DNA from: Calothrix membranacea FACHB-236
GTDB taxonomy: Bacteria > Cyanobacteriota > Cyanobacteriia > Cyanobacteriales > Nostocaceae
Assembly (NCBI RefSeq): GCF_014696315.1
Contig: NZ_JACJPX010000025.1
Location: 1 to 64,000, forward strand
DNA: 64,000 bases
Reading direction: 5' to 3'
In this document: piece after piece, positions 25,357 to 43,418 of the stretch
Numbering within the stretch: the stretch's first letter is position 1
How the letters are laid out: every line of letters begins with the position of its first letter
The notes under the pieces: generated by a model
What the model saw: only the letters and a program-made list of their open reading frames with translations
Told to the model about the DNA's origin: nothing
The model's database searches: none
Position numbers and translations under genes: made by a program

Positions 25357-25851
25357 ATGAGTATCCGCCATGCGACTGAAATTGACTTACCAGCTATTGT
25401 GGCAATTTACAATGCTGCAATTCCTACCCGCATGGCTAGCGCTGATTTAGAACCGGTGTCTGTAGAAAGCCGCCTAAATTGGTTTCGCGGGCGATCGCCT
25501 TCCCATAGACCCCTATGGGTTATAGAAGTAAACGGTGTAATAGCTGGGTGGTTGAGTTTCCAATCCTTTTATGGACGACCAGCCTATAGTAAGACTGCCG
25601 AAATTAGTATTTACATTTCTCCAAACTTCCAAAAATGCGGTTTAGGACAACAACTCTTAGCACAAGCAATAAAGCAAAGTCCAGATTTAGGTTTAAATAC
25701 TTTAATCGGTTTCATATTTGCCCACAATCAGCCCAGTTTAAAGCTATTTGAAAGATTTGGATTCACTGCTTGGGGACACTTACCCAAAGTTGCAGAACTT
25801 GATAGCGTAGAACGCGACTTAGTAATTATGGGACTGCGACTCAAGAACTAA
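25357..25851 (+). CDS. GNAT N-acetyltransferase, phosphinothricin acetyltransferase-like
   Basis: GNAT enzyme of 164 residues. The opening IRHATEIDLPAIVAIYNAAIPTRMASADLEPV and the acetyl-CoA loop SPNFQKCGLGQQLLAQAI (residues 88-105) match the phosphinothricin/methionine-sulphoximine acetyltransferase group. FIFAHNQPSLKLFERFGFTAWGHLPKVAEL is the usual C-terminal strand-helix end with the conserved N-x-x-S-x-x-L-F-x-x-x-G-F pattern. Such chromosomal copies usually acetylate amino-acid analogues and need not give resistance. Monocistronic, preceded closely by a terminator-like hairpin. Confidence 0.88.
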   Translation: MSIRHATEIDLPAIVAIYNAAIPTRMASADLEPVSVESRLNWFRGRSPSHRPLWVIEVNGVIAGWLSFQSFYGRPAYSKTAEISIYISPNFQKCGLGQQLLAQAIKQSPDLGLNTLIGFIFAHNQPSLKLFERFGFTAWGHLPKVAELDSVERDLVIMGLRLKN

Positions 25852-26212
25852 TAGGTTGGTGTTTATTGTTTGGTGCTTGTCTCCCTCATCCCCCTGTCAA
25901 GGAGTGCTGTAATTTTGAATTTTGAATTGATTTATCCCCAATCCCCCACTGTAGGGTGAAAGACATCTGCACTCTCACCCCTCGTAATAGCTAAAATAAA
26001 AGCGCCAGTGAATACGGTGTAAAAGCTGGCGCTGGTGTTATCGGTATTTGTGGAAGCATAATCTTATGCCATGTGTTGATGATGCGCTAGTATGGTAAGT
26101 CCCCTTGCGGGTTTCACCCCTAGTGGGCTTTATGCTGATTGGTGATGAAACAGCACGAATTTATACACATAAAATACATTACAAATCTTTAGTGAGGTAA
26201 TTTGTAATTAAT
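25852..26212. other. Spacer with a hairpin, no gene
   Basis: Contains AGCGCCAG...CTGGCGCT (26001-26033, perfect 8-bp arms) about 150 bp downstream of the GNAT gene and a GC-rich stretch around 26098-26132 (CCCCTTGCGGG, CACCCCTAGTGGGC) that may fold. No protein gene seen. Confidence 0.5.
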
Positions 26213-26268
26213 AATTCGTAATACCCTGTGAGTGCGTCTTTAGGCTATCTCCCAGGGTATTACGAATT
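26213..26268 (-). terminator. Terminator of the Rieske protein gene
   Basis: AATTCGTAATACCCTG pairs perfectly (16 bp) with CAGGGTATTACGAATT around a 24-nt loop, 17 bp past the stop codon of the leftward Rieske gene. Confidence 0.75.
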
Positions 26269-26284
26269 ACGAATTAATTGTTTA

Positions 26285-26638
26285 CTATTGCAATCCCACC
26301 CAAATATTTCCTTCTTCTACACGAGTAGGAAATACAGGTACTGATTTTTCTTTAGAAATCATGCCCATAACCTTGTTAATACCTGGGGGAAAGGTAATCC
26401 ATTCAGTAGGGTTGCCAGTGGCAAGGTCAAAAGCGCTACGGTGAAATGGGCAGACGATCGCACCATTATCTGTGATTTTCCCTTTCTTCAAAGGTAGCTT
26501 CATGTGGGGGCAAGAATTTTCTAGGGCGTAGATTTGGTTGTTGTGGTGAACTAATAAGATATTGCGTTGTTCTACTTTTACCACTTTGCGATCGTTAGGT
26601 GGCAGTTCATTTTCCGGAAGAACGTTGATCCAGTTCAT
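26285..26638 (-). CDS. Rieske [2Fe-2S] ferredoxin-like protein
   Basis: Small Rieske protein of 117 residues. The cluster ligands are Cys43 and His45 (NSCPHMKLPL) and Cys63 and His66 (IVCPFHRSAFDL). It is a stand-alone soluble form like those serving as electron donors to oxygenases or nitrite reductase small subunits; it lacks the membrane anchor of the cytochrome b6f Rieske protein. It is the most distal gene of a leftward group with a V4R-like protein, a protoglobin, a roadblock protein and a GTPase, though 333 bp separate it from the nearest, including a dispersed repeat. Its partner is unknown. Confidence 0.9.
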   Translation of the reverse strand: MNWINVLPENELPPNDRKVVKVEQRNILLVHHNNQIYALENSCPHMKLPLKKGKITDNGAIVCPFHRSAFDLATGNPTEWITFPPGINKVMGMISKEKSVPVFPTRVEEGNIWVGLQ

Positions 26639-26784
26639 AATTACCTCGATACCTCGCTGAACATCATCTACAGGGCCGCTGCTTGATGGAAGACGTGGAA
26701 ATATTATGCTCTTTTAGCCATCAACAAGCTGATTAACTCCATCATTTCACAAGTGTGTAGCTCTATAGATAGCTTGATAGAGAA

Positions 26785-26903
26785 CTAAGTAGATTGGCGA
26801 AATTAAAGATAACTGGCTGAGGCTGTCATTGGTCATTGGTAAGGATTTTAAACCTATTTACGTTTATTAACATAGTTGGGTTTATTTTTACCGACTTACT
26901 TAT
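26785..26903 (-). repeat. Dispersed ~120-135 bp repeat, copy B (inverted)
   Basis: On the minus strand it reads AAGTAAGTCGGTAAAAATAA, ACCCAACTA, GTAAATAGGTTTAAAATCC, two CCAATGA heptamers and CAGCCTCAGCCA, nearly identical to copy A at 5430-5565. The copies differ mainly in heptamer number (two here, four there). Confidence 0.85.
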
Positions 26904-26971
26904 ATGAACTATTTCTCCCAGAGACAACGCATCTATACTTATACCAACTGCTTTCCTTTCTAGGGGTATTA

Positions 26972-27439
26972 TTAGTGAGATGACAATTCCGTAAACTCAA
27001 AGACATCATGGCTGCTACCACGTAGCACTGATTCAGTATGTTTGCCAATTAATCGCTTACCAGTAGCCTGTTCTAATACTCCCCAAATAGCACCTAATGT
27101 ATAAGTACATTTACGTGTAGAACCAGGTATTTCACCCGCAGAACATAAAGTATCTGATGCAAAAATATTGATAGTATCGCCTTCTTGCTGGACTTTCTCA
27201 ATAATACACAGGCGAGTACCATTTTTGCCTAAAGCTAAACCTATTTTGGAGACGACATCCTCTAAAGGTAAATTAGTTTTTACTAAGGCTAATTCTTGCG
27301 CTAATTGCTTACCACGACTACGACCAGCAGCAATCAAAGCGATCGCAGTTGCTTTTTCACCTAAAGCTTCTTCCATCCCTCTAATTGCTGCTTTAAAACA
27401 AATAATACTACTAAAATCTCCCAAAGTTGGACGTAACAT
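26972..27439 (-). CDS. V4R-like small-molecule-binding protein (tentative)
   Basis: Soluble protein of 155 residues. The C-terminal half, LCSAGEIPGSTRKCTYTLGAIWGVLEQATGKRLIGKHTESVLRGSSHDVFEF, follows the pattern of V4R (4-vinyl-reductase) or hydrocarbon-binding domains: a Cys pair, then a G-x-x-x-G-x-L-E helix and a terminal beta-strand. The late Cys residues usual in V4R are missing, so the assignment is weak. The start has AGGAG upstream. It lies 303 bp downstream of the protoglobin on the same strand, and the grouping with a roadblock protein and GTPase suggests a sensor or adaptor role. Confidence 0.5.
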   Translation of the reverse strand: MLRPTLGDFSSIICFKAAIRGMEEALGEKATAIALIAAGRSRGKQLAQELALVKTNLPLEDVVSKIGLALGKNGTRLCIIEKVQQEGDTINIFASDTLCSAGEIPGSTRKCTYTLGAIWGVLEQATGKRLIGKHTESVLRGSSHDVFEFTELSSH

Positions 27440-27624
27440 TAATAATTAATTCTCCTGTTCTAAGAAATCTATTTTTTATATCTACAATGTCTAAAAATAT
27501 TGCGGTAAAAATTGTATTTTGTGAGACAAATAATTAATTTTATAATTCTTGTGTATCTAGCTGTAAATAAGCTTATAAGCTAACTGTTAAAATATCCTCT
27601 TATATCAAGTCCAGATAATTACTT

Positions 27625-27720
27625 ACGATATGATTGGTCTTGTTGGTAATTGGTAATTGGTAAACTGTATTTTTCTTTCCTATTACCCATTACCCATTAC
27701 CAACCTTCACACGATATGAT
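27625..27720. repeat. Inverted heptamer-repeat block flanked by 10-bp direct repeats
   Basis: TTGGTAA units (27642-27664) and TTACCCA/TTACCAA units (27681-27703) face each other and can fold back. The block is bounded by identical ACGATATGAT at 27625-27634 and 27711-27720, like a target-site duplication. It sits between the protoglobin and V4R-like genes. Confidence 0.7.
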
Positions 27721-27742
27721 AAATACTCAAACGAACATGATA

Positions 27743-28297
27743 TTACATAGCTTTAGCACCAGTACTAATTAAGCGCTTAAATAAACCTTCTGACCAGCCT
27801 GTTTCCTTCAAAACCGCAGATGAAGATACTTCTATATAAGCTTGTTCAATAAAGGCTAAGTCAATCATGCAAATACGACCGAGAGCGTCTTTGAGATCTG
27901 CGCTTTTACCATCGTTTGTCAGCCGCTTACCTACTTCATAAATTACTGTCGCCATTGCAGGAACAACGTGTTGCGGGCCAATACCAATCCGGACGTGAAT
28001 GAGACCAATTTTCCAACGTCTTTCGGCGTAAGCATCTCCCCAGTTATCCATACCTGTAAACATTTCATGAAACCATTGAATAAAGGTTTCCCGGAGGCGA
28101 TGTATACGTCCGCTACCATCATGTAAAATCGCACTCATTTCTGGATCGCGTTCCAAGTAATCATAAAAATATTCAGCCATATTTGGTGCTACTTCTAAAC
28201 CCCAATCTGCCTGAGATTTTAGTAATTCTTTATCCTCAGATGTCAAACCAACACGCTTTTCTAAGATGGAGAAGAACTTATGTGGATCTAAAGTCAT
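27743..28297 (-). CDS. Protoglobin (globin-coupled-sensor-type globin)
   Basis: Single-domain haem protein of 184 residues. The text RRWKIGLIHVRIGIGPQHVVPAM places the proximal haem ligand at His101, as in protoglobins and the globin part of HemAT-type sensors. The distal part, GLEVAPNMAEYFYDYLERDPEMSAILHD, fits the B-E helices. There is no output domain after residue 180, so any signalling must pass to another protein. It lies in a leftward group after a CvnD-type GTPase and a roadblock protein and before a V4R-like protein, so a gas (O2, NO or CO) sensing role coupled to the GTPase is inferred. Confidence 0.88.
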   Translation of the reverse strand: MTLDPHKFFSILEKRVGLTSEDKELLKSQADWGLEVAPNMAEYFYDYLERDPEMSAILHDGSGRIHRLRETFIQWFHEMFTGMDNWGDAYAERRWKIGLIHVRIGIGPQHVVPAMATVIYEVGKRLTNDGKSADLKDALGRICMIDLAFIEQAYIEVSSSAVLKETGWSEGLFKRLISTGAKAM

Positions 28298-28400
28298 AGT
28301 TGAGCTTTCCTACAATACGCAAAAATTAGTGTTGGCTGGCTATTAAAAAGAAAGTAAATTATTCAGTTGTGCTGTTGAACTGATAAATTTATCGCAGCAG

Positions 28401-28441
28401 AATATTTTGGTTTTTGGATGACATCCAAAAACCAAAATATT
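28401..28441 (-). terminator. Long perfect hairpin between roadblock and globin genes
   Basis: AATATTTTGGTTTTTGGAT pairs perfectly (19 bp) with its complement after a 3-nt loop (28420-28422). It starts 16 bp past the roadblock stop. It may end the GTPase-roadblock transcript or act as a processing site before the globin gene. Confidence 0.75.
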
Positions 28442-28456
28442 AGCTATATCTTGTTC

Positions 28457-28825
28457 TTAACTAATTAAAGGTGCAATTTGAGCAACGGCACGTTTGATTT
28501 CTAGAAATAACAAGCCTTGTTTAACAGCTGCATTCGCTAAAACCAATAAAACTGCATCTGGGCCACAGCTAACTACAATACCAAAGCCTTTTTCACCTTC
28601 AACAACAATCCGGTCAATAGTGCCCCGTACTAGTTCGCTACCGATACGTTCCCCTAAAGAAAGCATTGCTGCTGACATAGCAGCAGTACGGTCTTCATCC
28701 ATTTCTGCTGGTAATACAGAAGCTAAAGCTAAACCATCAGGGCTAACTAAGGCTGCACCTTGAATGTTAGAGGTTCCGCTGACAAAGTTTTGTAGAACTT
28801 CTTGTAACATTGAAATATTAATCAT
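28457..28825 (-). CDS. Roadblock/LC7 domain protein (CvnB-like)
   Basis: Roadblock/LC7 protein of 122 residues, expected to form dimers and bind or regulate a small Ras-like GTPase. The text SNIQGAALVSPDGLALASVLP, then DEDRTAAMSAAMLSLGERIGSELVRGTIDRIVVEGEKGFGIVV, is typical. I chose the ATG at 28825 (MINISMLQEV) because GAGGAA lies 7 bp before it. The frame is open up to 28981, which would add about 52 residues with no domain character. It follows the GTPase gene (gap 185 bp) and is followed by a strong hairpin and the protoglobin. Confidence 0.9.
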   Translation of the reverse strand: MINISMLQEVLQNFVSGTSNIQGAALVSPDGLALASVLPAEMDEDRTAAMSAAMLSLGERIGSELVRGTIDRIVVEGEKGFGIVVSCGPDAVLLVLANAAVKQGLLFLEIKRAVAQIAPLIS

Positions 28826-29010
28826 GCTTGTTTCCTCAGTGATTCTTGCTAAAGCTGGTTGATGACTTGCCAATAAATTGGTTTGTGAATCTGTTGGCAG
28901 GTTGGCAGTTTTATCTGCAATTAAAAACATTTTGATAAATGTTCTTGGGAGGAGCTTGAGAATATTTCCCAAATGCATCAATGCTCATCTGCTTACTACA
29001 AAATGGTTGT

Positions 29011-29535
29011 TTAAATTATTTTGGGGATGATGAGATTTAAAGCCTCAGTAATTGAAGCTTTTTGGGTAGGATTCACCGCAATTAAAGGTGGTTGGTGATT
29101 TAAATTTTGCAATCCTAATGCGATCGCTATTTTTTCCGGTTCCACAATTCTGGGACAATCAGTATGAGTTAGCCCTATCAGTATCGGAATTTGCACCCTT
29201 TGGTTAACGAAATCGAGAATGTGAGTCCCATAGTGGAAATGTTCAGGACGATGAGCATCCACAAGCAGGATGCAAGCTTGAACTTGGCGAATCAGGATAT
29301 CCCACATAAAATCAAATCTAGGTTGTCCTGGTGTGCCATAAAGGTGAACTACTTGATTTGGTAAGATTGTGAGCAGCCCAAAATCCAACGCTACTGTAGT
29401 TTTAGATTTGAGTAGCGCTAATTCATCTGTGCTGTTTTTATCGGTATCAACGGCCTCAATTTCACTAATAGTGCGAATAAAGCTCGTTTTCCCTGCACCA
29501 ACGCTCCCTGCGATCGCAATGCGTAGGATTTCCAT
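29011..29535 (-). CDS. Small GTPase of the conservon CvnD/MglA-like type
   Basis: GTP-binding protein of 174 residues. The P-loop is GSVGAGKTS (10-18). The switch region TTVALDFG (46-53) and LYGTPGQPRFDFMWDILIRQ (65-84) match the CvnD-like family, where Gly-Thr replaces the usual Asp of the G3 motif (DxxG). THTD (123-126) is the G4 motif. In Streptomyces conservons such GTPases are encoded with a roadblock protein and a kinase; in Myxococcus the related MglA acts with the roadblock protein MglB in polarity. Here it heads a leftward unit with roadblock and protoglobin genes. A GGAGG sequence 8 bp before the ATG is a strong ribosome binding site. Confidence 0.9.
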   Translation of the reverse strand: MEILRIAIAGSVGAGKTSFIRTISEIEAVDTDKNSTDELALLKSKTTVALDFGLLTILPNQVVHLYGTPGQPRFDFMWDILIRQVQACILLVDAHRPEHFHYGTHILDFVNQRVQIPILIGLTHTDCPRIVEPEKIAIALGLQNLNHQPPLIAVNPTQKASITEALNLIIPKII

Positions 29536-30209
29536 TTAAACCTCCGCAAGGATATTACTTCCCTAGGTACTAGGAAAAGTTGGGACAGTTGAGATAATTG
29601 CAAATCTGTTTTCTATGAAAGTAAGGCCATAAGCTTTACCCTCACTGAATCTTAGGAATGCAAATAGATTCTGCGAGTACATCAGTAGTTTGTTCTGCTT
29701 TGAGAATTACCTCAGTAAATATTTTTCCTCAATGATGCAATTCACAAAGCAATTGCACCAGATATTTGCACCCTAAATTTTTGATATCCGTATAATAACG
29801 GATTTTACACTAGTATTATTTTCTTTTTCAAACATTAAAGTATTAAATTTTTTTATTTTGGCTATATGTAATTGAATATACTCACCATGAATTCTCTATA
29901 TTCTGCTGTATTGAGTTATCTTGCAAGAATAAATAGTAATTACCTGTATTTAGCTGCTTTTATCTCTTTTTGTTTAGCTTAAGCAAGTGTTGCCGCTTGA
30001 TAACGCGTCTAATTTTTTTATGGTTCAGATGTGTTAAAAAATAAAAAATGTAAACTTATATCCTAATTCCATTAAAGATATGTTTTAGAAAAATGTAACT
30101 TAAACTACAAATTAGTAAGTTTTGGAATTAGCAGTCCTTGGAGTGAGCAAAATACCACACAATTGTTTTGTAGAGAAATCTTGTCTGGATTCACAATTAA
30201 TTACTGCTC
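29536..30209. other. AT-rich divergent spacer, 0.67 kb
   Basis: No gene, RNA or clear repeat seen. It must carry the promoters of the leftward GTPase unit and the rightward DUF6816-like gene. Confidence 0.55.
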
Positions 30210-30983
30210 ATGAAGGCGATTTGGAGTTTGTGCTTGGTTGCTTGCTTCTGTTTTAGCTGGAGTGGAAACGCCGTTGCGGGGGAATTATCGCAACGACTAG
30301 CAAATTTTCCTCAGTGGGAAAAATTAACTTCAGTGCAACCAGCGGTGGGGGATTTGGTTTATCCTGATTGGATGGGTGGTTCTTGGCAAGTTACAAGTAC
30401 ATTGGTGGATTTAGTTGCACCTTTAGCACCAGATATCGTTACACCTGGATTTGAAGCTAATCGCCAACAACTCAATCAGCCAGTGAATTTTCTGGTAAGA
30501 TTTATTAAAGAAAAGTTACCTATTACTCGATTAAAAATACTTGCACAGATAGATGATAAATCAGCTAATTTTATAGCCGATAGAGCATTTAATAGCTTGA
30601 ATTTGGCACGGGCTTATTTAGGTGATGGCGCAGTACTATCAGTAAAAGTAGATCCAGATTCGCCAAATCGTCAGATTACTTTATTACGTGGAGAACGGCA
30701 ACTAGTTTCTATTGTCACAGCACGGGCTACAGAAACTACATCTGATGGTAAATTCATCACTACAGAACTTTTTCAACAACTATTTAAAGGTGGTTCTCGT
30801 CCTTATTTCAATTCTGTAGAATCTACAACTTCCTATCACAAACTGTCTACATCCAATCCAGCAATTGAAGCAGATCAAGTAACTGCTGTCTACCTATCAC
30901 CCCAAGATCCAGATTACTTTAGAGCAGCCTCAAGGCCAGTTGCGCTTTATCGTTATCGTCTAGAATTTTCTCCCATTCAATGA
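30210..30983 (+). CDS. DUF6816-like exported protein
   Basis: Exported protein of 257 residues with a signal peptide (MKAIWSLCLVACFCFSWSGNAVAGE, cleavage after VAG or AVA). The mature part, PAVGDLVYPDWMGGSWQVTSTLVDLVAPLAPDIVTPGFE, is a signature I associate with a family conserved in cyanobacteria and plastids (DUF6816), probably located in the thylakoid lumen or periplasm. A later HKLSTSNPAIEADQVTAVYLSPQDPDYF is also conserved-looking. The biochemical role is unknown. It is followed after 109 bp by an ABC exporter on the same strand. Confidence 0.7.
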   Translation: MKAIWSLCLVACFCFSWSGNAVAGELSQRLANFPQWEKLTSVQPAVGDLVYPDWMGGSWQVTSTLVDLVAPLAPDIVTPGFEANRQQLNQPVNFLVRFIKEKLPITRLKILAQIDDKSANFIADRAFNSLNLARAYLGDGAVLSVKVDPDSPNRQITLLRGERQLVSIVTARATETTSDGKFITTELFQQLFKGGSRPYFNSVESTTSYHKLSTSNPAIEADQVTAVYLSPQDPDYFRAASRPVALYRYRLEFSPIQ

Positions 30984-40053: not shown

Positions 40054-40353
40054 ATGGAAAGACCTCGCGTTATGGTCATTGGTAGTAAAGTCACTATGGT
40101 GCAACGTGTCAGTCGCTACTGCCTAAAAAAGGATTTAGAAGTGTTCCCTTACTATGGGATTCCCCTCAATGAAGAGATAACTCTATTCAATCCCCATGTT
40201 TTTGTACTTTGCCAGCCTCTACCTGAAGGCTTCTTGCCATGCACAGCACAACCCTACATTTTGTTGTCAGAGCAAGCAATTGATGGGGATATAAACGATG
40301 TTAGATCCCCATCAGAATTGTCTATACGCTTGCAAGAAGTCCTCCAAATTTAA
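40054..40353 (+). CDS. Hypothetical protein, 99 aa (receiver-like fold possible)
   Basis: Small soluble protein without recognised domain. The opening PRVMVIGSKVTMVQRVSRYC and NPHVFVLCQPLP read like the first strands of a receiver or Rossmann-type alpha/beta fold, but no phospho-accepting Asp is placed correctly. It stops at 40353, and the TAA shares three bases with the stop codon of the convergent response regulator (40350-40352). Its location next to a two-component pair hints at a related regulatory job, without proof. Confidence 0.55.
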   Translation: MERPRVMVIGSKVTMVQRVSRYCLKKDLEVFPYYGIPLNEEITLFNPHVFVLCQPLPEGFLPCTAQPYILLSEQAIDGDINDVRSPSELSIRLQEVLQI

Positions 40354-41030
40354 ATTAATCCTTCTCTGATAGCAATTGCGGCTGCTTGAACGCGATCGTC
40401 TACGCTGAGTTTATTCAGGATCATACGTACATAGGACTTCACTGTTCCTAGTGACAGGTATAATTCATCAGCAATGCTTTGGTTGGAATAGCCATCAGCA
40501 ATTAATTTTAAAATTTCCCGTTCCCGATTGCTCAGGACTGGCTGTTGCCCGATTTCAGTCACAGTCGCTTTATTATGAGCAACTATCACGGGTTTAAGCA
40601 TTCGGGACACCTTTTGGGCAATTTTTGGGTCTAAATAGGCACCACCTTGTAGGATCAATTGAATCACTGCAATCAATTGCTCCCATTCAATACTCTTTAA
40701 ACAGTAACCATCTGCACCAGCTGCTAGCATCCCCATCACCTGAGTATCATGGTCGAATGCGCTCAAAGCTAGAATGCGGATATTAGGGCGATCGCTTTTA
40801 ATTTGCTGTGTAGCTGTGATGCCATCCATAACTGGCATATCAATGTCCATTAAAATCACATCTGGCTGGAGTTTTATAGCTAGTTCTATTGCCTGTGTGC
40901 CGTCTGTAGCCTCTCCCACGACATCAAAACCAGGTTCCATAGTAAACTGGCCTTTCATCCCTCGGCGTACCAAAGCATGATCGTCTACTAATAAAATCTG
41001 TACGTTTTTTTGCTCGTCACTCTCAGACAT
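40350..41030 (-). CDS. NarL/FixJ-type response regulator
   Basis: Two-component response regulator of 226 residues. The receiver domain has VQILLVDDHALVRRGMKGQF, the phospho-accepting Asp in PDVILMDIDMPVMDG, and Lys in DGYCLKS. The DNA-binding domain is LuxR-type: LSNREREILKLIADGYSNQSIADELYLSLGTVKSYVRMILNKL. I chose the ATG at 41030 (MSESDEQ) with AGGAATC before it. An in-frame start at 41144 would overlap the upstream kinase gene by 89 bp. The gene follows its probable partner kinase by 25 bp, and shares stop-codon bases with the convergent 40054-40353 gene. Confidence 0.93.
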   Translation of the reverse strand: MSESDEQKNVQILLVDDHALVRRGMKGQFTMEPGFDVVGEATDGTQAIELAIKLQPDVILMDIDMPVMDGITATQQIKSDRPNIRILALSAFDHDTQVMGMLAAGADGYCLKSIEWEQLIAVIQLILQGGAYLDPKIAQKVSRMLKPVIVAHNKATVTEIGQQPVLSNREREILKLIADGYSNQSIADELYLSLGTVKSYVRMILNKLSVDDRVQAAAIAIREGLI

Positions 41031-41055
41031 GATTCCTGTTCCTACACTTTTGACA

Positions 41056-42564
41056 CTATGCATGATGGAACCTAGCCTTATCTGTATTAGCTGGTAGGGT
41101 AAACCAAAAGGTACTACCTTTACCGAGGGAACTGTCAACGCCAATTATGCCACCATGAGCTTCAATGATTTGACGGCATAAATAAAGACCTAGTCCACAT
41201 TTACCACGTCGGCCCCGTCCTTGTACAAAACGGTAAAACAGTTGTTCTTTTTCCTGTGGTGCAATCCCTCTACCTTGATCACGCACCGAAACTTTGACTT
41301 GGTTGTGTTTGAAGCTAGCAACCTCAATTGATATTTGTTTGTGAAGTTCACTAACGCGCACAGCATTGTCTAACAAATTTTGTAAAACGCGTCGGATCTC
41401 TAACTCATCACCATAGATAGTTGGTAAATAGTGGGCAATGCGATAATTTATACAAAAATCAGACTCAGAAATAGCCTGAATTTGGTCAATAACTTTCACA
41501 ACTATCTTTTCCCAATTCAGAGGCTCATAATTCAAGCTCACTTGATTACCAGCTTCATAACGAGAGATATCTAAAAGAGCTTCCACCAACCTGATCAAAT
41601 CCTCGTTAGTTTGGTGGTATTCTTTAAATACTTCTCTCCAAGTGTCACTAACTGCACCGAAAGCCCCTTTGAGCATACTCTCTAGAGTGGTACGAGTAGC
41701 TAAGAGGGGGGTGCGGAGGTCGTGAGATAGGGTACAGATCAGCTCTTCAAGATTTTGATTACGTACCTGTATGCATATTTGACGACGTTGAATCTCATTC
41801 ACCATTGCATCAACAACTTCTGTCAATTGACTGATTTTGTCAGGATTCCGATAGTCAGTTGCAGATTTTCTGTGCTTTTTTTTCAACTGGTGCAAAGTTA
41901 CTGTAGCTCGTCGATGCAAAAGCTGGAGATGAAAACCCACTGCTAGCAATATCAGTACTGTGCTAATGATATTGAGAACAATGTTGATTTGGTGTAAATC
42001 AGTGAGCCACATTGTGCGATCGCTCAACAGGTTTTGCTCTTGCTCAACTAAGCCTTGAACTTTATTTCGCAAAGCGCCAAATAAAGTCATTTCTACGCGA
42101 CTATCACGGCTTTGAACATTAGAGAAATTCTGTTGACTCAACTCACTTTGTAATTGCTGATAAACATCTTTAATGTGATCGAGTTGCCTTAGTTGACTAG
42201 GGTTATCCTTTAAAAGATGGTATAGACGATTGAAGTTATTCTCAAAAGAGATAGTCTCTAATTCATCACCCTCAACTAAGCGTTTTTCTAGGTCAATCAC
42301 AGCGTTGAGGAGATGATCCTCTTCTTGCTCTAGCAATACAGCATGAGTTAAATTTTCAGATGCTTCGTGTTTGAAATATCCTAGCCAAAGGTTTAAGCCA
42401 TGTTGGACTAATATCAACAACACCACCATGAACAAGCTAGTATACAACGGTCTAAATAAATAACTTTTCTGAGTCGATGGAGTTATTAACCGTAAGAAAT
42501 TAATAGCAAACACCCTAACAAATCCGTAAGCTGACATCAGCAATATCCAGCGCTTGGCTGGCAT
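41056..42564 (-). CDS. Sensor histidine kinase with CHASE3-like input
   Basis: Membrane kinase of about 502 residues. Helix 1 (YTSLFMVVLLILVQHGLNLWL, about residue 45) and helix 2 (IVLNIISTVLILLAVGFHLQL, about residue 195) bracket a ~130-residue helical extracytoplasmic domain like CHASE3. The H-box is LSHDLRTPL, the N-box RVLQNLLDNAVRV, G1 DQGRGIA, G2 GKCGLGLYLC, so all catalytic motifs are present. It should phosphorylate the response regulator encoded 25 bp downstream. I chose the ATG at 42564; a TTG at 42579 is in frame. The signal is unknown. Confidence 0.92.
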   Translation of the reverse strand: MPAKRWILLMSAYGFVRVFAINFLRLITPSTQKSYLFRPLYTSLFMVVLLILVQHGLNLWLGYFKHEASENLTHAVLLEQEEDHLLNAVIDLEKRLVEGDELETISFENNFNRLYHLLKDNPSQLRQLDHIKDVYQQLQSELSQQNFSNVQSRDSRVEMTLFGALRNKVQGLVEQEQNLLSDRTMWLTDLHQINIVLNIISTVLILLAVGFHLQLLHRRATVTLHQLKKKHRKSATDYRNPDKISQLTEVVDAMVNEIQRRQICIQVRNQNLEELICTLSHDLRTPLLATRTTLESMLKGAFGAVSDTWREVFKEYHQTNEDLIRLVEALLDISRYEAGNQVSLNYEPLNWEKIVVKVIDQIQAISESDFCINYRIAHYLPTIYGDELEIRRVLQNLLDNAVRVSELHKQISIEVASFKHNQVKVSVRDQGRGIAPQEKEQLFYRFVQGRGRRGKCGLGLYLCRQIIEAHGGIIGVDSSLGKGSTFWFTLPANTDKARFHHA

Positions 42565-43418
42565 CTTAAATAACTGCAAATTGTTGATATTTCAAGCTTG
42601 ATATTCAGGTATATTCGCCACTGTTATTATCCTGAATAATTCTGACATGATAGCAAGTATACGCTTACAAGCTTGACTGCTATTTCCATCCCGGGATAGA
42701 TGCAAAATAAGTTGTAAATAAATGCATTTTATCAGTCATACTACACTCATAAACTTGATTACCATTTTTTGTTAAAGAGATTACCCTATCAGTTTATTTT
42801 AACAGGTATGGAAGCAGTGTATCACTAACAAAGTTCTTTTAAACGCTATATTGTTAAACTTCTATATAAGATTAGTCTGCACTAAAATATGATGTATCTT
42901 TGTTGTAAAATTTCGCTTCTACAAAAAACACTTTTTACTATACCGTTACTGAATAAATTTGTAATCCACAAAACTTGTAAGCCATATCCAGTAAAGCTTT
43001 TAGTTGATAAAAATTATTGATTTTCTATATTTATGTCATGATATTTTAGAGTGAAATCTAGATTGTTTATCCACAAAAAATGTTACATAGTTTGCATCCA
43101 CAGCAGATAAATACTGAGAATTATTGCTCAAAATAAAATCACAATATACTTATCACTATCTCTGTCTTTATCTAAGATTAATATTTTAGATGTCGCCATA
43201 TTAATGGCTGAATATTGCCATATTATTATTTCTTAAGAGTAAAATAATTCACCCAATAACGCAATTTTTACGTTCGATAAAATCAGGATAAATTATAATA
43301 AATTTAAAATTAGCTTGCCTCAAAATATAAAAAATCTTTAGCAAAGATGGATGCTCATCAAAAAAGTAATTTGATGCATAATTAATCTCTCAACTTTTAG
43401 GTCAAATTTTAAACAATA
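42565..43418. other. AT-rich spacer without a gene, 0.85 kb
   Basis: The longest gene-free stretch in the polysaccharide area. It is AT-rich with no open frame with a start signal and no RNA gene that I can recognise. Confidence 0.55.

Follow-up and report, generated by a model that had tools for sequence, protein, structure and literature searches.

A Ras-like GTPase, a roadblock protein and a protoglobin encoded together in Calothrix membranacea and other cyanobacteria: a possible haem-based sensory switch

In this study, we analysed the first 64,000 nucleotides of a contig of Calothrix membranacea FACHB-236 (NZ_JACJPX010000025.1; hereafter the window), which carries on its minus strand genes for a small Ras-like GTPase (29011-29535, 174 amino acids (aa)), a roadblock/LC7 protein resembling MglB and CvnB (28457-28825, 122 aa), a single-domain protoglobin (27743-28297, 184 aa) and a V4R-fold protein of the MopR/PoxR/Bet3 kind (26972-27439, 155 aa). 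The four open reading frames (ORFs) were found in the ORF list and the sequence where an original prediction, made from the DNA alone, had placed them. It is well supported that genes for the GTPase, the roadblock protein and the globin, joined in part of the genomes by a V4R and a DUF4388 gene, form a conserved cyanobacterial set that lies nearly always on one strand and occurs in many genera. We favour, with moderate confidence, the reading that the window holds one copy of a conserved signalling unit, in which a haem ligand or redox state sensed by the globin would act via the roadblock protein on the GTPase and then on an output.

Profile and sequence searches of the 8.8 Mb genome returned a single match at E ≤ 0.001 for each of the globin, GTPase, roadblock and V4R families; the probability that chance alone would place two such single genes within 2 kb of the globin is roughly estimated at 2e-7. 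Co-occurrence was also observed between genomes. An order-level sample of 291 genomes was searched with the window globin, a GTPase profile and a roadblock profile, and six of the 47 globin-matching genomes were set aside: in five, the match was weak and fell within a longer sensor protein (G023, G071, G088, G276, G280), and in the sixth it was a C-terminal fragment (G235). Both the GTPase and the roadblock gene were present in 40 of the 41 genomes counted as globin-bearing versus 23 of the 250 others, related genomes being counted as independent; with the six genomes restored, the counts are 40/47 versus 23/244. The sole globin genome without both partners (G289) has neither at a threshold of 1e-20, and in G162, which is among the 41, the globin lies in a 363-aa frame and faces away from its partners (L079). 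In a phylum-level sample, a globin match was detected in 37 of 386 genomes.

The genes are also physically close. Around the 82 globins of a named-genome set (the best 80 of 165 matches), in which partners were counted within 4 kb, we found a roadblock gene in 78 cases, a GTPase gene in 69, both in 69 and a DUF4388 gene in 50; both partners accompany 52 of the 60 globins not close to a contig end, and neither was found at four loci (L118, L139, L158, L164). For the 51 globins of the order sample that scored above 100 bits, the same range held a roadblock gene in 42 cases, a GTPase gene in 36, both in 36 and DUF4388 in 16. This threshold omits L080-L090, which comprise a distant globin without the unit (L080), longer proteins (L083-L089), a fragment (L090) and two loci with the unit (L081, L082). 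Twenty further places were fetched: ten outside the order (L179-L188), three with multi-domain proteins (L189-L191) and seven of the window's family (L192-L198). All ten places outside the order have the GTPase and roadblock genes, and nine have DUF4388. Over 17 loci counted together (L179-L188 and L192-L198), GTPase was found 17 times, roadblock 16 and DUF4388 16. Among named genomes, those of Nostoc carneum NIES-2107 and Nostoc linckia FACHB-104 come closest, their globins being 99% and 98% identical to that of the window. The original prediction had made its case depend on conserved synteny, and globin, GTPase and roadblock genes are indeed kept together in related genomes.

Two kinds of locus are particularly informative. 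At L179, whose genome we take to be Thermosynechococcus because its globin is 100% identical to the sequence of Protein Data Bank (PDB) entry 8h17, the genes run in the order globin, roadblock, GTPase, DUF4388 with gaps of 72, 34 and 24 bases, one of the most operon-like arrangements that we observed. At L081 and L082, of one genus in another family, a globin only 29% identical to that of the window is accompanied by the same roadblock, GTPase and DUF4388 genes. This points either to fast change or to recruitment of a second globin, and both favour a functional link.

The GTPase and the roadblock protein form a pair of the MglA/MglB type, that is, a small GTPase gene beside a Robl_LC7 gene with an Asp-Gly pair. 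The motifs GSVGAGKTS, TTVALDFG and GTPGQPRF, from which a CvnD-like GTPase had been predicted, were all read in the sequence (G1 GSVGAGKT, G2 TT, G3 GTPGQ, G4 THTD), and the best Pfam match is PF03029 at 2.2e-11, small-GTPase models being weaker. The G4 motif THxD is well kept among 166 aligned rows (T123 in 157, H124 in 160 and D126 in 165). The predicted roadblock/LC7 identity agrees with a PF03259 match at 3.6e-16; the family profile matches the CvnB5 structure 3leq at 2.8e-13, and the Asp-Gly pair is invariant in 27/27 aligned rows. Judging from aligned relatives, the ATG at 28825 is likely the start of the roadblock gene, and not the TTG at 28981 of the ORF listing. MglB, a roadblock protein, has been described as a GTPase-activating protein and also as a guanine nucleotide exchange factor for MglA (PMC11016934; this and the other PMC articles are cited for the part of their text that was available). 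The roadblock protein of the window is likely the regulator of the adjoining GTPase.

The original prediction had compared the set to the actinobacterial conservons (CvnA-D; mfp), with which it shares a GTPGQ small GTPase whose gene is accompanied by one for an MglB-type roadblock protein and by a signal input. However, the window has a globin and a V4R protein, and its relatives often DUF4388, instead of a kinase and DUF742. PF05331 (DUF742, CvnC) had no match in the whole genome, in a search in which no control genome passed the cut-off and two matched below it, and there is no histidine kinase among the main ORFs of 26285-30983; a kinase- and regulator-like pair, labelled without a family search, lies about 11 kb away (40350-42579). 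Group 2, the conservon group of MglA proteins, is defined by GTPGQ and NxFD (PMC4316618); the window GTPase has the G3 motif, but its G4 is THTD. Membership in the conservons is thus not borne out, and the comparison may hold for the way of working. With MglA/MglB and the Group 5 MglA proteins, the set shares the GTPase-roadblock pair; Group 5 occurs in cyanobacteria, and Group 1 and 5 genes are sometimes found near PATAN genes (PMC4316618). Group 5 differs in its G4 motif, [NT]KxD instead of THxD, and in its varied neighbourhoods, and the word "globin" is absent from the available text of that article. We regard the set as a variant of an MglA/MglB-type switch. In a literature search with most subscription journals outside its coverage, roadblock, GTPase, cyanobacteria and globin never appeared together, and among the matches listed the gene set is undescribed.

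The window globin fits the original prediction of a single-domain protoglobin with His101 and no output domain: it matches PF11563 at 9e-21, and no second domain was found with Pfam. Among aligned distinct globins scoring above 100 bits, His101 is kept in 135/135 and Tyr45 in 134/135, with one gap. We take His101 to align with the proximal His of HemAT, and Tyr45 presumably occupies the distal B10 place by HemAT numbering; with a PF11563 match and a proximal His, the protein has the marks of a protoglobin or sensor globin. In the PDB, the family profile matches 8h17 best (Tlr1989 of Thermosynechococcus, 1.9e-90), followed by a Geobacter sensor globin, AfGcHK and HemAT, and 8h17 is also the best fold match of a predicted model (predicted local distance difference test (pLDDT) score 90). 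These profile and fold matches, together with the conserved His101 and Tyr45, make haem binding by the window globin likely. A bilin-type globin was ruled out, as the proximal His is retained and CXRD is absent. In the same literature search, no paper was found on Tlr1989, nor on 8H17 with globin. Globin-coupled sensors (HemAT, AfGcHK, DosC) share the sensor-globin fold and the proximal His, but the window globin lacks a fused output domain, and its output would act in trans.

A fifth gene, overlooked by the original prediction, often belongs to the unit. Its product matches PF14332 (DUF4388) at 1.6e-28 to 2.2e-26 in three examples, and we equate it with PATAN, helped by its kinship to PatA. 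This kinship is described in PMC4316618, as is the occasional location of Group 1 and 5 MglA genes near PATAN genes. Beside the window set, no DUF4388 gene was found, a decayed copy included; the best tblastn match in the window (E 0.015) lies at 56 kb, and six DUF4388 matches in open frames of 364-500 codons occur elsewhere in the genome. In Synechocystis, the pilus motor PilB1 is cited as a binding partner of PATAN response regulators (PMC9090330). From this binding, and from the MglA genes near PATAN genes, it is tempting to guess at a type IV pilus output. This guess concerns genomes in which a PATAN gene adjoins the unit, as none does at the window set.

To look at the switch away from a globin, we picked 40 places with a GTPase or roadblock gene; this is a chosen set, in which some genomes bear a globin elsewhere and several places are cut by contig ends. 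A V4R gene was present in 13, a gene for a helical carotenoid protein in seven and neither in 20, while DUF4388 occurred in 34. Three of the seven carotenoid proteins were recognised by Pfam Carot_N (1.7e-59 to 1.1e-60) and the remaining four by a profile built from these, which had no match in the other 159 loci scanned. The carotenoid gene lies directly upstream of the roadblock gene in five cases, with gaps of 276-501 bases (L209:5823-6353, L223:7738-8271, L226:7769-8302, L227:3317-3847, L236:3113-3643), and about 2.3 kb off in two (L207, L208). On a roadblock tree made by a quick method (105 rows, 75 of them labelled; 123 columns), the neighbouring sensor as a label requires 12 changes versus a mean of 26.0 in shuffles, and the five carotenoid-linked rows require one; 47 of the 94 inner branches are unresolved, and the starred branches force three changes each for globin and V4R. 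The sensor label is thus clustered on the tree yet changes several times. Because V4R or carotenoid proteins are found in 13 and seven of these places, the sensor place may be exchangeable, with a common switch and several possible inputs.

How might such a switch work? The globin would bind haem and read O2, NO or redox state, and its ligand state would alter how it contacts the roadblock protein, thereby changing the action of the latter on the GTPase. The GTP form would then act on an output, which in most genomes might be the adjoining PATAN protein and, through PATAN, type IV pili; the V4R protein could provide a second, small-molecule input. Most economically, a globin, V4R or carotenoid protein would modulate roadblock action on the GTPase, and PATAN or another partner would read the GTP form. 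The unit being decayed or partly missing around the globins of L192 and L062 also counts for this reading: L192 is a decayed cluster with GTPase and DUF4388 left as fragments, and the L062 genome lacks a match to either GTPase or roadblock, yet a V4R gene and a 179-aa DUF4388 frame stand beside its globin.

Several observations weigh against the proposed unit. Gaps of 159-303 bases separate the window genes and a perfect hairpin lies between the roadblock and globin genes, which speaks against assuming one transcript. The 23 globin-less genomes of the order sample that have both GTPase and roadblock genes make the globin an accessory. V4R is missing near over half of the globins in every set, and DUF4388 near 35 of the 51 order-set globins; away from contig ends, both partners accompany 25 of 35 globins of that set. 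Neighbours on the other strand also occur (roadblock 2/42 and GTPase 1/36 in the order set; roadblock 1/78 in the named set, best 80 of 165). From gene association, motifs and folds, we infer sensing of a gas or of redox state by haem, its coupling to the GTPase and an output through pili. Finally, nine of the 51 order-set globins have neither partner within 4 kb. Seven of these (L052, L059, L065, L069, L071, L074, L077) are second copies, each genome having another globin with both partners, one (L075) is in a genome with another globin adjoining a roadblock gene alone, and the ninth is L062. On a globin tree, partnered and partnerless globins do not form two clean groups (five changes), and six of ten partnerless globins form one supported set.

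These partnerless globins, and the lack of an output domain in the window globin, would suit a protein that acts as an enzyme or scavenger in NO, peroxynitrite or O2 chemistry and shields the cell or the system instead of sensing. A Methanosarcina protoglobin has been reported to have nitrite-reductase and peroxynitrite isomerisation activities (PMC4020757). Nevertheless, the globin is kept beside a regulator and a switch and is kin to sensor globins, and 20 of the 40 globin-free places have another ligand- or pigment-binding protein, mostly adjoining the roadblock gene. We regard this alternative as rather unlikely, though it is the strongest competitor of the sensor, whose role we consider plausible.

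The V4R protein was called tentatively in the original prediction, correctly as to its fold. The window protein has no Pfam V4R match, and 8 of 19 aligned homologues match PF02830 at E ≤ 1 (best 2.3e-4). Its predicted model (pLDDT 83) has its best Foldseek match, at 2.3e-7, in MopR (5kbe); the solved V4R domains of PoxR and DmpR are matched as well, as are Bet3, TRAPPC3 and, more weakly, H-NOX. Among 68 aligned rows, C78 is conserved in 63, C99 in 65, C111 in 61 and an acidic residue (D/E) at position 96 in 66, presumably resembling the zinc site of V4R proteins. The protein is likely ligand-binding. Binding of hydrophobic ligands and a signalling role have been proposed for V4R domains (PMC2253512), and V4R genes occur at 13 of the 40 places away from a globin. 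Potentially, V4R might therefore be the true sensor, with the globin just supplying or changing its ligand or redox state. V4R genes, however, were found near only 35 of the 82 named-set globins (best 80 of 165 loci), 19 of the 51 order-set globins and four of the 17 L179-L198 globins (two of the ten outside the order), and in L091, a close relative, the set consists of GTPase, roadblock and globin with no V4R, so that we consider this improbable. Least probable of all is a neighbourhood without a common mechanism, held together by co-regulation or shared inheritance: gaps are often large, gene order differs between lineages and a hairpin separates two of the window genes, but the set lasts across distant families with its order changed and its strand kept in nearly all, and the divergent globin (29% identity) occupies the same place.

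For a V4R protein encoded with a globin, the nearest described cyanobacterial cluster is slr0144-slr0149, which like the pre-PcyA clusters combines V4R proteins with a globin and an iron-sulphur protein (PMC10151467). The globin there is related to phycobiliproteins and of the bilin-binding kind, with CXRD in some members, whereas here a protoglobin is encoded with a GTPase and a roadblock protein; the window globin lacks CXRD, and there is one V4R gene versus two. TRAPP and the Asgard GTPase, roadblock and TRAPPC3 proteins share the V4R/Bet3 fold, the roadblock fold and a small GTPase (PMC10933270). The set described here is bacterial with V4R optional, and the likeness found here is one of folds rather than of exchange activity or a membrane role.

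The hairpin of the window is a perfect 20-bp inverted repeat with a 1-base loop at 28401-28441 (no strand assigned), between the roadblock and globin genes, and occurs once in the genome. It is possibly an attenuator, a terminator or a processing hairpin. One relative (L092) retains an 18-bp stem in the same gap with a paired change on both sides. As a general feature of the unit, the hairpin was ruled out, since among 31 roadblock-globin gaps of the named loci a long stem (18 pairs) is found in L092 alone, followed by L093 with 10 pairs, L091 with nine and the rest with at most nine. An Rfam search of 25800-30300 gave no match, and promoter and terminator patterns were in no excess over shuffled sequence. 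Between the globin and V4R genes, the short repeats GGTAATT and TTACCCA form an inverted pair at 27642-27704, which we take to be of a kind common between cyanobacterial genes.

Past the V4R gene lies a Rieske protein gene (26285-26638, minus strand). The original prediction was right about its presence, but not if it is counted with the set: the Rieske ferredoxin was ruled out as a unit member, the one other match in 59 fetched neighbourhoods being weak (28 bits, 349 aa, opposite strand, L075). Elsewhere, three loci (L040, L046, L143) have two globin genes per contig, some with their own roadblock gene, and in this group NB-ARC-like and dehydrogenase-like genes, so labelled from sequence alone, recur beside the unit. 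At ten loci (L043, L049, L064, L066, L067, L073, L137, L163, L169, L197), the unit lies just downstream, on the same strand, of genes labelled in the same way as histidine-kinase-like and response-regulator-like. L192 (G585), with remnants of globin, GTPase and DUF4388, and L090 (G235), a globin end, are decayed copies in genomes of the window's family.

The sensor globins known so far act mostly through a fused output domain. If a globin does gate a Ras-like GTPase in trans, gas or redox state would have a further route into bacterial signalling. The proposal offers a testable function for PDB 8h17 (Tlr1989), for which the L179 run provides a compact system, and perhaps for some helical carotenoid proteins, which in other cyanobacteria would gain a possible signalling role. 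That bacteria have V4R, roadblock and small GTPase genes next to each other has a bearing on how TRAPP-like regulators arose. More tentatively, and with less confidence than we place in the unit itself, it may be speculated that a roadblock-GTPase-PATAN core serves as a general bacterial input board with separate, interchangeable sensors, gas or redox state being read by a haem globin, light or singlet oxygen by a helical carotenoid protein and a small hydrophobic ligand by a V4R protein, to steer pilus-driven movement or another surface function. Such a board would amount to a kinase-free G protein system gated by gas and pigment, built from folds that eukaryotes use in TRAPP (V4R/Bet3, roadblock and small GTPase).

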